A stretch of 64,000 nucleotides of DNA, taken from assembly GCF_036046055.1 (NCBI RefSeq), contig NZ_CP107939.1, forward strand, positions 1-64,000. Direction: 5' to 3'. This document shows, piece after piece, positions 1 to 46,715 of this stretch (positions within the stretch are counted from its first letter, which is position 1; each line of letters opens with the position of its first letter). Below the pieces are notes generated by a model. It did not search any database. It was not told where the DNA came from and was given only the letters and a program-made list of their open reading frames with translations. Source of the DNA: Nocardia sp. NBC_00403. GTDB taxonomy: Bacteria; Actinomycetota; Actinomycetes; Mycobacteriales; Mycobacteriaceae. The translations under genes were made by a program, and so were the position numbers.

Positions 1-100
1 CGCACCGCGATCGGCACGTTGTAAGCAGCCGACTCGGTATCGAAACGGTTCAGGAACCACATCCGCTGCTGCGCAAGCGACAACGGAATACGCTCCGGCC
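1..100 (-). other. NRPS module 15, N-terminal edge of C domain (partial)
   Basis: Reads [15 protein letters not shown] followed by AYNVPIAVR, the start of an LCL-type C domain, before the window ends. It equals the start of C13 (6415-6514) almost base for base, so module 15 may be a further copy of module 13. Confidence 0.85.
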
Positions 101-45100: not shown

Positions 45101-46715
45101 CGAACTCCGCGTACGTCAGCGTCGAGCCCTCGAAATCGAGCGCGACCTTGTCGGGAGTCAGCGGGATCTGCGCGTCGAGCAGGGCAGGCAGGGTGGTGTC
45201 CGGCAGCGGCTGCTCGGCGTCGTTCCACTCGTGCAGCGTGCGGGTGCGCTCGGCGTCGGTGGTGGCCTGCAGGCTCCACACCTTCGCATCGGCGTCGGCG
45301 GCGAGGAACCTGTCGAAGAACTCCAGGAACCGCGCATGGTGCTGCGTGGCTTCGGTTTCGGTGTAGAGGTTCGGGTTGGTCTCGAAGTCGATGTGCGAGC
45401 GGGTGCCCGCGACAGACTGGTAGAAATTGACGCCGAGATCCTCGATACTGCCGGTGGAGAGCACATTCAGCTGGCTCACCATGTCACCGAACACGACCTC
45501 GTTGTGGAACAGCATGATATTGACCCACGGACCGAAGAACTCCGTGGTCACCACACCGTCACCGGCCGCATCGCGGCGGATGTCCTCGTGCCGGTAGCGC
45601 TGATGCCGCAGCGCCCCTGACACCTCTACCTGCACCTGCTTCAGCAACTCCGTGACCGTGGTATCGAAACCGACGCGCATACGCAGCGGCACGATATTCG
45701 ACGTCGCACCGCCGGACCGGCGCATCGCCGCGGTGGTGCGCGCGGTCACCGGCAGGCTCAAGATCACTTCTTCGGCGCCGGTCCACTGCGCCAGATACCC
45801 CGCGAACGCCGCGATCAGCAGACCCGCGGGCGAGTTGTCGTGCCGCGCCACCGCCTCGGCCACCAGCGTGTCCCGCTCCGGCGACAGCACCGCGCTTGCC
45901 ACATTGTTGAACGGGGCCGGCGGCGCGGAACGGCCGGCCAGGCTCGTTCCGTCCTCCAGACCCGCTACCCGCTGGGCCCAGTGCTCTTTGTCGCCCTGGA
46001 ATCGAGTGCTGTCCCGGTAGGCGATCTCCTGCTCATACAGCGTTCGAAGGCTGTCGGCCTTTGCGGGCGACGCCACCGTGCCGGTCACAGCCGCCGTGTA
46101 CAACTCGGCGATCCGCTTCATATAGGTCATCGCGCCGAAGCCGTCGAGCACGATGTGATGAATCCTGGAGAACACGAACCACCGCTGGTCCTCCAGCTGC
46201 AATATGGCATTCCAGAACAGGCGATCGTTGACGATGTCCAGCGGACGGCTGTACTCCGCCCGCATCCATTCCGCGGCCACTGCCTCCGGGTCGTCGGCGT
46301 CGCGCAGGTCTAAATACCCGAACTCGGTCGACAGCGAGGTGTCGACGCCCTGCATCGGCTGACCGTCGCGCTCGATGATCCGCAACCAGCCCGACTGCGA
46401 CTCGTTCCCCGCGTCGACAGCGGCCTGCCACACTGCGCGGAGATCGAGATCACCGCGAAGCTCGAGATACTGCGCGATATTGATCGGGACATGCGGGTCT
46501 ACATGCTGCGCGTACCAGATGCCCAGCTGTGCGGGCGACAACGGGAAGTACTCCACAGCGGCCTGCGAAGTGCCCCCATTTGCGTCCTCAGTTTCGCCGT
46601 TTCCGCCGAAATCCAGCCGGTCCAACCGTAACCTCGCTTCTGGAACACCACGCAAGCGCTCCCCGACGACACCGGGACGGGACGCCCGCTTTTCCAAGCG
46701 TGGCGCCTGCGTCAC
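1..46715 (-). CDS. Giant nonribosomal peptide synthetase, 14 complete modules plus start of a 15th (3' end outside window)
   Basis: Multimodular NRPS that should build a peptide of at least 15 residues on 4'-phosphopantetheine arms in the cytoplasm. The window holds 15,571 codons (about 1.7 MDa) with no stop seen. The M(L)YR(T/S)GDL motif of all 14 A domains and the carrier serine of all 14 T domains have a lowest coordinate divisible by 3, so the frame holds from end to end. Order: starter-like C1-A-T, then C-A-T repeated, with one E domain after T6. The start is GTG at 46713-46715, the first in-frame start after an in-frame TGA at 46728-46730; its Shine-Dalgarno is weak. A short basic leader of about 50 residues precedes C1. 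No TE domain is visible because the gene leaves the window. I do not recognise the product. Only the repeats raise a doubt: an assembly collapse or expansion could change the module count. Confidence 0.95.
101..3313 (-). other. NRPS module 14: C - A14 (code DLWHLILVS) - T14 (ARGGNS variant)
   Basis: Second copy of module 12 (offset 6,414 bp). C domain with [11 protein letters not shown]; the A14 code equals A12; MYRTGDL at 768; T14 serine codon 258-260, again in ARGGNS with the upstream AARAGEQ insertion. Confidence 0.87.
3314..6514 (-). other. NRPS module 13: C - A13 (code DVWDFILVS) - T13
   Basis: Second copy of module 11 (offset 6,414 bp). C domain [16 protein letters not shown] at 3975; T13 serine codon 3471-3473. 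The pocket code is the same as in modules 1 and 11. The N-terminal part of A13 (about 4,440-5,300) differs from A11 much more than the rest, and its spacer there resembles module 9 instead. Confidence 0.87.
6415..12828 (-). repeat. Tandem two-module repeat, upstream copy (modules 11-12)
   Basis: Partner of 1-6414. It encodes C-A-T-C-A-T of modules 11 and 12 with the same two pocket codes and the same ARGGNS carrier variant as the downstream copy. Confidence 0.93.
6515..9727 (-). other. NRPS module 12: C - A12 (code DLWHLILVS) - T12 (ARGGNS variant)
   Basis: C domain with [11 protein letters not shown] and an AQQRYWF start. A12 reads DLWHLILVS, identical to module 14; substrate unknown. MYRTGDL is at 7182. 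T12 has [13 protein letters not shown], with Arg where the other modules have Leu before GGNS, and a seven-residue AARAGEQ insertion just upstream. The serine codon is 6672-6674. Both oddities are shared with T14. Confidence 0.87.
9728..12928 (-). other. NRPS module 11: C - A11 (code DVWDFILVS) - T11
   Basis: LCL-type C domain (HHIAGDGSS). The A11 code is the same as in modules 1 and 13. MYRTGDL is at 10389 and the T11 serine codon at 9885-9887. This is the first half of the upstream copy of the two-module tandem repeat. Confidence 0.87.
12929..16165 (-). other. NRPS module 10: C (YHIAADG variant) - A10 (code DVWSFALVH) - T10
   Basis: The C-domain catalytic motif reads YHIAADG, with Tyr (codon 15738-15740) in place of the first His of HHxxxDG; the second, catalytic His is kept, so activity is likely retained. 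The domain starts LAQQRYWF and shares RYWF, AVDN and the DGAS context with C12 and C14. A10 reads DVWSFALVH; substrate unknown, with the TEFTV ending of module 2. MYRTGDL is at 13578 and the T10 serine codon at 13086-13088. Confidence 0.85.
16166..19408 (-). other. NRPS module 9: C - A9 (Ser) - T9
   Basis: LCL-type C domain with [10 protein letters not shown]9 reads DVWHFSLVD (serine), with FTSGEA at the 299-301 region. MYRTGDL is at 16815 and the T9 serine codon at 16323-16325 (GGNSLLATQ). Confidence 0.88.
19409..22674 (-). other. NRPS module 8: C - A8 (Thr) - T8
   Basis: LCL-type C domain (HHISADGFS). A8 reads DFWNVGMVH (threonine), with NMYGITE and LYRSGDL at 20055. The T8 serine codon is 19566-19568. 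From about 19497 to 21140 the DNA is near-identical to 30585-32270 of module 5 (offset 11,088 bp, becoming 11,121 bp past the 33-bp insertion of module 5), whereas the two C domains differ clearly. Confidence 0.88.
19497..21140 (-). repeat. A-T repeat of Thr module 8 (partner of 30585-32270)
   Basis: Long stretches are identical by eye to module 5, for example 19497-19640 vs 30585-30728, 19865-19991 vs 30953-31079 and 20407-20775 vs 31528-31896. The similarity covers A and T but not the C domain. Confidence 0.88.
22675..25864 (-). other. NRPS module 7: DCL-type C - A7 (Ser) - T7
   Basis: C7 differs from every other C domain in the gene: it starts [18 protein letters not shown] and has [10 protein letters not shown]. 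This is the DCL subtype, which takes a D-configured donor and fits directly behind the E domain. A7 reads DVWHFSLVD (serine, as EntF). MYRTGDL is at 23325 and the T7 serine codon at 22833-22835. Confidence 0.9.
25865..30496 (-). other. NRPS module 6: C - A6 (code DALFIGAVA) - T6 - E
   Basis: The only module with tailoring. The C domain has [10 protein letters not shown]6 is divergent from the others (FDASILEL, Phe at 278, [17 protein letters not shown]), giving DALFIGAVA; this suggests a hydrophobic residue but I cannot name it. MYRTGDV is at 27987. The carrier motif is LGGDSIVS (serine codon 27492-27494), the form typical of T domains that precede epimerization domains, where the other modules have GGNS. 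An E domain follows, so a D-residue is predicted at position 6. Confidence 0.88.
25930..27345 (-). other. Epimerization (E) domain of module 6
   Basis: About 470 residues between T6 and C7. It starts with [12 protein letters not shown], carries the E-type [11 protein letters not shown] motif (about 26884-26920) and, further on, [10 protein letters not shown] and VSFNYLGRV (about 26177-26211). These are E-domain core motifs and not those of a C domain. It should equilibrate the L/D configuration of the T6-bound peptidyl residue. Its presence explains the extra length of module 6 (4,662 bp between A-domain motifs against about 3,200 elsewhere). Confidence 0.9.
30497..33781 (-). other. NRPS module 5: C - A5 (Thr) - T5
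   Basis: LCL-type C domain (HHISADGFS). A5 reads D-F-W-N-V-G-M-V-H, a known threonine code; its A5 core is NMYGITE, not the usual NxYGPTE, as in the other Thr module here. Its SGDL motif is LYRSGDL at 31143. The T5 serine codon is 30654-30656. The A-T DNA is near-identical to that of module 8, apart from an 11-residue insertion just before the A5 core (about 31438-31475). Confidence 0.88.
30585..32270 (-). repeat. A-T repeat of Thr module 5 (partner of 19497-21140)
   Basis: Same sequence as the module 8 copy except for a 33-bp insertion near 31438-31475 and a more diverged patch in the A-T linker. Confidence 0.88.
33782..36973 (-). other. NRPS module 4: C - A4 (Ser) - T4
   Basis: LCL-type C domain ([17 protein letters not shown]). 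A4 reads D-V-W-H-F-S-L-V-D, the same nine residues as the serine-activating EntF, and the A10 Lys is present, so L-serine is predicted with good confidence. MYRTGDL is at 34431 and the T4 serine codon at 33939-33941. Modules 7 and 9 carry the same code. Confidence 0.88.
36974..40150 (-). other. NRPS module 3: C - A3 (Ser-like code with Pro: DVPHFSLVE) - T3
   Basis: LCL-type C domain with HHISADGWS. The A3 pocket matches the serine code DVWHFSLVD except at two places. Position 239 is Pro (codon 38142-38144, in FDVSVPEFF) where the serine modules 4, 7 and 9 have Trp, and position 331 is Glu instead of Asp. Serine or a related small residue is a guess. MYRTGDL is at 37623 and the T3 serine codon at 37131-37133. 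Confidence 0.85.
40151..43411 (-). other. NRPS module 2: C - A2 (code DAWSLGLVN) - T2
   Basis: The C domain is LCL-like ([11 protein letters not shown] at its start, HHIAADG near 42980-43000). A2 has FDASVWEP, S at position 278, LVGGEA and TEFTVNA, giving DAWSLGLVN; no substrate is known to me. The TEFTV ending is shared only with module 10 (DVWSFALVH), so the two may be related in specificity. MYRTGDL lies at 40812. The T2 serine codon is 40308-40310 (GGNSLIATQ). Confidence 0.85.
43412..46715 (-). other. NRPS module 1: starter-like C1 - A1 (code DVWDFILVS) - T1
   Basis: C1 begins at about 46555 and carries HHIVLDG at about 46140-46160. Its N-terminal motif ([11 protein letters not shown]) and NIAQYLEL segment resemble the first C domain of EntF-type synthetases, not the internal LCL domains that follow. 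It should therefore take an acyl or aryl group, or a peptidyl group from another protein. A1 reads D-V-W-D-F-I-L-V-S at the Stachelhaus positions, with MYRTGDL at 44064 and the A10 lysine ([10 protein letters not shown]) present. I know no substrate for this code. It recurs in modules 11 and 13. The T1 phosphopantetheine serine is the codon at 43569-43571 in GGNSLVATQ. Confidence 0.85.

Follow-up and report, generated by a model that had tools for sequence, protein, structure and literature searches.

An even-numbered family of giant Nocardia peptide synthetases with a predicted sixteen-module member in Nocardia sp. NBC_00403

The window analysed here comprises bases 1-64000 of the one-contig genome record of Nocardia sp. 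NBC_00403 (NZ_CP107939.1, 8,725,101 bp) and carries, on the minus strand, the greater part of a giant nonribosomal peptide synthetase (NRPS) gene. We judge it highly probable that the product of this one gene is a complete NRPS in a single chain, 18,833 residues long (about 18,803 from an alternative start), with the mechanism and the family proposed below. At 18,833 codons it exceeds the kolossin synthetase gene of Photorhabdus (about 16,370 codons, derived from a length of 49.1 kb), as an earlier note on this sequence had anticipated, and its product would rank among the largest bacterial proteins. The size claim is confined to bacteria because the fungal tex1 synthetase (about 20,900 residues) is larger. 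The gene is the longest member seen of a Nocardia family in which, as a new observation, all 37 complete genes read have an even number of modules (10-16). Neither a larger bacterial NRPS gene nor a report of the size record, the ending without a thioesterase (TE) or the even counts of this family was found in the open-access literature searched.

The gene frame and its modules

The minus-strand frame was followed from 46715 to 3 over 15,571 codons with zero stops and zero N, so that the unbroken reading of the earlier note was borne out. No stop lies just left of position 1: the frame crosses the record start, with one codon split over the join, and runs 3,261 codons further, as far as a TAG at record 8,715,315-8,715,317. 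Counted from the GTG at 46715, the whole gene measures 18,833 codons (56.5 kb; 2,026 kDa) and has no inner stops. The start site can be placed only to within about 30 codons. Upstream of the GTG the fifth codon is an in-frame TGA, and protein similarity to the relatives starts at '[11 protein letters not shown]'; because the sequence common to the relatives begins there, translation may really begin at a TTG 30 codons inward (18,803 codons). A chance open frame is contradicted by the matches to PF00668 and PF00501 in each of the 14 window modules.

The organisation is that of a type I modular NRPS, with repeated modules of condensation (C), adenylation (A) and peptidyl carrier protein (PCP) domains in a single frame. 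The order is a starter C domain, 16 C-A-PCP modules with epimerisation (E) domains after modules 6 and 16, a terminal C domain and a truncated A domain (A*). Positions 1-46715 hold 14 A and 14 PCP domains, and the fifteenth C domain begins at 92, which agrees exactly with the 14 full modules and the start of another counted earlier. More follows than the module 15 and release domain that the note had considered: beyond the window were found the remainder of module 15 (code class X2), module 16 (X2, with an E domain that lacks its motif), the terminal C domain and the dead A remnant.

The features below were assigned from domain matches and A-domain codes, the latter read from motif positions; E and C motifs were added for modules 6 and 10 and C-domain profiles for module 7. 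DVWHFSLVD and DFWNVGMVH are taken by us to be Ser and Thr codes, and X1 (DVWDFILVS), X2 (DLWHLILVS) and X3 (DVWSFALVH) are labels of code classes without substrate assignment.

1-46715, minus: part of the NRPS gene inside the window (codons 1-15571 out of 18833); remainder at record 8725101 down to 8715315
43461-46547, minus: module 1, starter C (45246-46547), A (44133-45173; DVWDFILVS, X1), PCP
40200-43400, minus: module 2, C-A-PCP, DAWSLGLVN
37023-40145, minus: module 3, C-A-PCP, DVPHFSLVE, Ser-like
33834-36965, minus: module 4, C-A-PCP, DVWHFSLVD, Ser
30546-33770, minus: module 5, C-A-PCP, DFWNVGMVH, Thr
25923-30482, minus: module 6, C-A-PCP-E, DALFIGAVA; E intact (HHLVVDG)
22728-25829, minus: module 7, C (D-acceptor type)-A-PCP, Ser
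19458-22670, minus: module 8, C-A-PCP, Thr
16218-19400, minus: module 9, C-A-PCP, Ser
12987-16154, minus: module 10, C-A-PCP, DVWSFALVH, X3; C motif YHIAADG
9780-12920, minus: module 11, C-A-PCP, X1
6573-9716, minus: module 12, C-A-PCP, DLWHLILVS, X2
3366-6506, minus: module 13, C-A-PCP, X1
159-3302, minus: module 14, C-A-PCP, X2
1-92, minus: module 15, first residues of the C domain, which continues at record 8725101-8723826
46-647, minus: end of module 14, next to the record start; exact 602-base repeat of the end of module 12 (6460-7061)

Catalytic motifs (HHxxxDG in C; A3, A5, A7, A9 and A10; GGxS in PCP) were found throughout the 16 modules, with a few misses of the regular expressions: A7 (modules 5 and 8), A10 (module 6), the C domain of module 10, and the PCPs of modules 12 and 14, which read RGGNS. 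The second E domain, in module 16, lacks HHxxxDG. No TE domain match was obtained within the NRPS gene by profile search; a terminal TE is usual in NRPSs, not obligatory. The closest PDB matches of the starter C domain were 7c1k/7c1h/7c1p, CDA synthetase I, ObiF1 and EntF, of which we take the first three to be a rhizomide starter domain and the others to be chain-initiating. By this comparison the first C domain appears closest to chain-initiating C domains, and acylation of the first residue is predicted.

The C domain of module 15 is split by the join: PF00668 positions 4-32 lie at 92-6 and positions 35-456 at 8,725,100-8,723,826, both on the minus strand, and the six bases between them (5-1 plus 8,725,101) encode exactly the two absent model residues, with none lost. 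Caution about the closure and the module count is nevertheless in order, because the join lies 45 bases from the 602-base exact repeat and repeats beside contig ends are prone to error. Modules 11-12 and 13-14 also have in common a mosaic of exact DNA runs of up to 722 bases, and the nearest relative of the gene has 12 modules. The contig might therefore have been closed at the repeat, so that the true module number is not 16 or modules 13-14 are misplaced. We consider such an artefact unlikely. Residue identity is 85 % between modules 11 and 13 and 91 % between modules 12 and 14, and differences at 15 % and 9 % of residues imply that all four modules exist; in addition, bases 1-45 fall outside the repeat, and the split domain closes with exactly two residues. 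Any closure error should amount to a whole number of modules, and even the loss of modules 13-14 would leave a gene of about 16,700 codons, above kolossin synthetase.

The Nocardia family, its module numbers and its ending

The tail of the NRPS was found at E ≤ 1e-60 in 133 of 150 Nocardia genomes, its own included (131 of the 147 good ones), so that the family is kept by nearly nine in ten Nocardia species. A DNA scan with the last 728 residues located 21 loci, of which 18 belong to Nocardia records, N. australiensis being nearest at 82 %, and three to Rhodococcus, Smaragdicoccus and Streptomyces at 42-44 %. When 15 of those genomes were queried with the last 228 residues, the tail was present at E ≤ 1e-80 in 11, all Nocardia; N. 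testacea, Rhodococcus and Smaragdicoccus gave weak matches (3e-30 to 3e-26) and the Streptomyces genome no match to this query. With a 318-residue query against 301 genomes of the taxonomic family, six from other genera matched nearly the whole query at 48-52 %. The best 120 of 260 matches from a protein search with the first 520 residues were relatives of 5,578-7,786 residues, a result that is uninformative on the largest proteins.

Frame length guided the choice of relatives, in such a way that the size classes and the lengths in between (13,184; 15,139; 17,160-17,680 codons) were covered. Thirty-eight were read, of which G407 and G353 were dropped because their contigs end inside the gene; G407 (13,184-codon frame) was ruled out as an odd-numbered orthologue on this ground. 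All 37 closed genes (36 relatives and the gene studied) follow the regular pattern (C-A-T[-E])n-C-A*, in which T stands for PCP, with n = 10 in nine, 12 in fifteen, 14 in twelve and 16 in the gene studied. The giant is not alone, since a length of 16,370 codons is also surpassed in 12 of the 36 complete relatives (16,739-18,117). Frames of at least 12,000 codons occur in 82 relatives, 37 of which were read (G407 open); the other 45 (12,405; 14,539-14,988; 16,821 codons) fall within the size classes of the genes read. A tree of the shared ends requires at least seven changes of module number, and the nearest relative (84 % identity) is the one with 12 modules. The family appears to change its length by dimodules, and modules 11-12 and 13-14 of the present gene are a dimodule duplication. 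Were odd and even steps equally probable, seven even ones would arise by chance once in 128; recombination between every-second modules could yield even counts without selection.

The 37 genes comprise 454 modules, among them 130 Ser, 66 X2, 57 X1, 50 Thr and 37 X3. The code of the first module is DVWDFILVS in 36 of the 37 and DVWDYILVS in one. Where the last module has an X2-type code, its E domain lacks HHxxxDG (14 genes) or is absent (11 genes); with other codes it is intact in 12 of 12, as are all 56 internal E domains. No working E domain is found in any of the 66 X2 modules. It appears to be new that the last module has no working E domain exactly when its A code belongs to the X2 class, predicted to be glycine.

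Profiles of D-acceptor and ordinary C domains were built from one half of the genomes and used to classify the other half. C domains that follow an E domain were called D-acceptor in 56 of 56 cases, and internal C domains behind E-less modules ordinary in 358 of 361, the three D-acceptor calls all standing behind X2. The terminal C domains were called D-acceptor in 37 of 37 genes, 11 of them behind an E-less module; this predicted type of ending is likewise new. Subtraction leaves 38 X2 modules that deliver to ordinary C domains, as a D-residue should not, for which reason X2 is better read as glycine than as a directly loaded D-residue, and achiral glycine is its most likely identity on these codes and profiles. 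The E domain would then decay or be lost because a D-acceptor C domain takes an achiral last residue that has not been epimerised.

A* covers positions 4-238 of 349 of the A model and 2-221 of 409 in TIGR01733 (50.8 bits against a cut-off of 317.4), and all five A motifs looked for are missing from it. Its ratio of nonsynonymous to synonymous differences (pN/pS) against six relatives is 0.29-0.31, within the range of the terminal C domain (0.25-0.48), so that A* is under purifying selection, also a new feature. The best of five AlphaFold models of A* (input: 14 named Nocardia homologues) had a mean predicted local distance difference test score (pLDDT) of 72.8, and its best PDB matches by Foldseek were NRPS A or C-A structures (8www, E 8e-17, TM-score 0.65 by query). 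The terminal C domain has HHxxxDG intact. The motif-less terminal E domain and the dead A* might be taken as signs of a long pseudogene or a decaying assembly line. This we hold to be very improbable in view of 18,833 codons without a stop, a tail conserved in 133 of 150 genomes, the pN/pS of about 0.3 for A* and core motifs that persist, bar the misses listed, in all 16 modules.

Besides this family, the genome of a relative, G082 (contig 1, near 6413000), contains a 17,357-codon open frame with an NRPS match and lacks the tail described above at E 1e-60; this is possibly a second kind of giant NRPS.

Proposed assembly line and gene neighbourhood

In the mechanism proposed, the starter C domain would N-acylate the first residue (X1) with an acyl-coenzyme A or an acylated acyl carrier protein, and 16 residues would be added in order. 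The peptide would read roughly acyl-X1-(DAWSLGLVN)-Ser-Ser-Thr-D-(hydrophobic)-Ser-Thr-Ser-X3-X1-X2-X1-X2-X2-X2. The Ser/Thr-rich product foreseen in the earlier note is in this way supported for six of the 16 modules, on the code assignments adopted above. A last residue of glycine would pass the D-selective terminal C domain unepimerised, with decay or disappearance of the E domain of the last module. The terminal C domain would release the chain onto a nucleophile, either the hydroxyl of a Ser or Thr within the peptide, which would yield a macrolactone, or an amine or alcohol from outside. A*, unable to adenylate, would be kept as a structural partner or fixed platform of the terminal C domain, as in ordinary modules. 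That the product is an N-acylated envelope or secreted peptide is a guess.

Several points weigh against this proposal. The join over the record start, so near the 602-base repeat, rests on geometry and not on reads. The D-acceptor profiles derive from the very family to which they were applied, and one of the 37 starter C domains was called D-acceptor; DLWHLILVS is not known to us as a code for Gly; and the model of A* is moderate, the five models spanning pLDDT 72.8 to 36.9. The terminal C domain is much closer to elongation C domains (McyB, PvdL and SrfA-C; E 3e-73 to 3e-67) than to the release domain of the fungal TqaA (E 6e-21), and on account of this likeness its sequence does not show release. 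The module-number frequencies are biased because relatives were picked by frame length, and the orthologues are related, so that 37 even counts represent fewer independent events, with at least the seven changes on the tree.

Thioesterase genes in short frames elsewhere in the genome tell in the same direction, as they would allow a chain to be freed in trans; alternatively, the terminal C domain could hand the peptide to another NRPS, and A* looks like what is left of an additional module. Either would account for a gene that has no TE of its own, and we regard them together as possible, if rather improbable. A downstream partner is not conserved (a TetR/AhpC-like pair in three of 18 relatives and a GDSL gene in three, with 1-3 kb fetched each), and the next NRPS pair has its own TE, while its first C domain, like the starter of the giant, has a low PF00668 score.

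Returning to release by the terminal C domain, the broadest claim would be that these are the largest known bacterial NRPS genes, making a peptide kept in most Nocardia species, and that their length evolves solely in two-module steps (10, 12, 14, 16), with a new ending in which a D-acceptor C domain is locked to a dead A fragment and glycine or a D-residue has to come last. Taken as a whole this is tentative, and we incline to doubt rather than to belief. If true, the reason may be that the product acts as an extended beta-strand, or some other need for an even residue number. The even module numbers, and the E domain that dies or vanishes with one code class of the last module, are natural experiments, and the uncommon C-A* ending is small enough to be tested as an isolated protein.

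The neighbours upstream of the gene were compared over 18 relatives; the counts are lower bounds, as the upstream stretch fetched varied.

49422-50177, minus: cobM (precorrin-4 C11-methyltransferase), same strand as the NRPS gene; in 13 of 18 relatives
51309-52541, minus: sensor histidine kinase; in 8 of 18 relatives
52672-53739, plus: FtsX-like permease, and 53773-54603, plus: ATP-binding cassette (ABC) ATPase; transporter pair in 6 of 18 relatives

It is a guess that the kinase and the transporter serve sensing and export of the product. No tailoring gene that clearly belongs to the NRPS was seen among the neighbours examined. Divergent from the NRPS gene, at 47239-49403 (plus), lie a 435-codon gene without Pfam or NCBIfam match and a gene for an Imm49 immunity protein, which may be a pair of the toxin-immunity type. 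Past the 3′ end of the NRPS gene a 703-codon frame (L005:2480-4591, minus) gave no Pfam match at E 1e-8.

At 80071-123398 (minus; L006-L008), 33 kb from the giant, a pair of NRPS genes of 6,023 and 8,418 codons has 13 A domains and a terminal TE. It is adjoined by genes for a GMC oxidoreductase, a glycosyltransferase 2 and a radical SAM/SPASM protein (L009:1185-6094, minus), a row that we take to be mycofactocin-like in make-up. The 8.7 Mb genome has 96 Condensation-family matches in all, and other long frames with C or PCP/acyl carrier domains measure 8,147, 6,127 and 8,675 codons.

Comparison with known systems

Gene cluster family (GCF) 6 of Mannle et al. (2020) is a conserved large Nocardia NRPS of variable size with 7-13 modules, and its invariant neighbours are a nitropropane dioxygenase, a metallopeptidase, an esterase, an epimerase and an enoyl-CoA dehydratase (PMC7413640). 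The present family is likewise large, size-variable and conserved in Nocardia. Identity with GCF 6 was rejected because the neighbour set differs in the part of the neighbourhood scanned, although one GDSL esterase gene lies downstream.

Fungal NRPSs with a terminal C (CT) domain (PMC8949500) resemble the Nocardia genes in having a terminal C in place of a TE. They differ in that the Nocardia domain is of the D-acceptor elongation type by sequence and has A* behind it; a fungal-type CT release domain was rejected on this sequence ground only.

Komaki et al. (2014) described a Ser-rich NRPS line, #35, that each of their seven strains carries; it has 12 modules in five strains and is partial in the other two. 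Adjacent to it, four species have an NRPS line for 13 residues, #36 (PMC4035055). The N. brasiliensis NBRC 14402 orthologue (G435) has 12 modules here too; the tail of IFM 10847 stands in a 2,625-codon frame on its own contig, which fits 'partial'; and the 13-module pair that ends in a TE near the giant is probably #36. On these three grounds the giant family is very probably #35, the identity of the locus being inferred. The accessible text on #35 does not give a gene length, the TE-less ending, a rule of even counts or larger members.

The kolossin synthetase of Photorhabdus, with 15 modules and 49.1 kb, has been called the largest in bacteria (PMC4685789, PMC9002308) and is described with an N-formyl start and many D-residues (PMC4685789). 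Both are single continuous giant bacterial NRPS genes with a linear module order. The Nocardia gene passes the one called largest in those papers and differs from it in having 16 modules, a length of 56.5 kb, a starter C domain and one working E domain.

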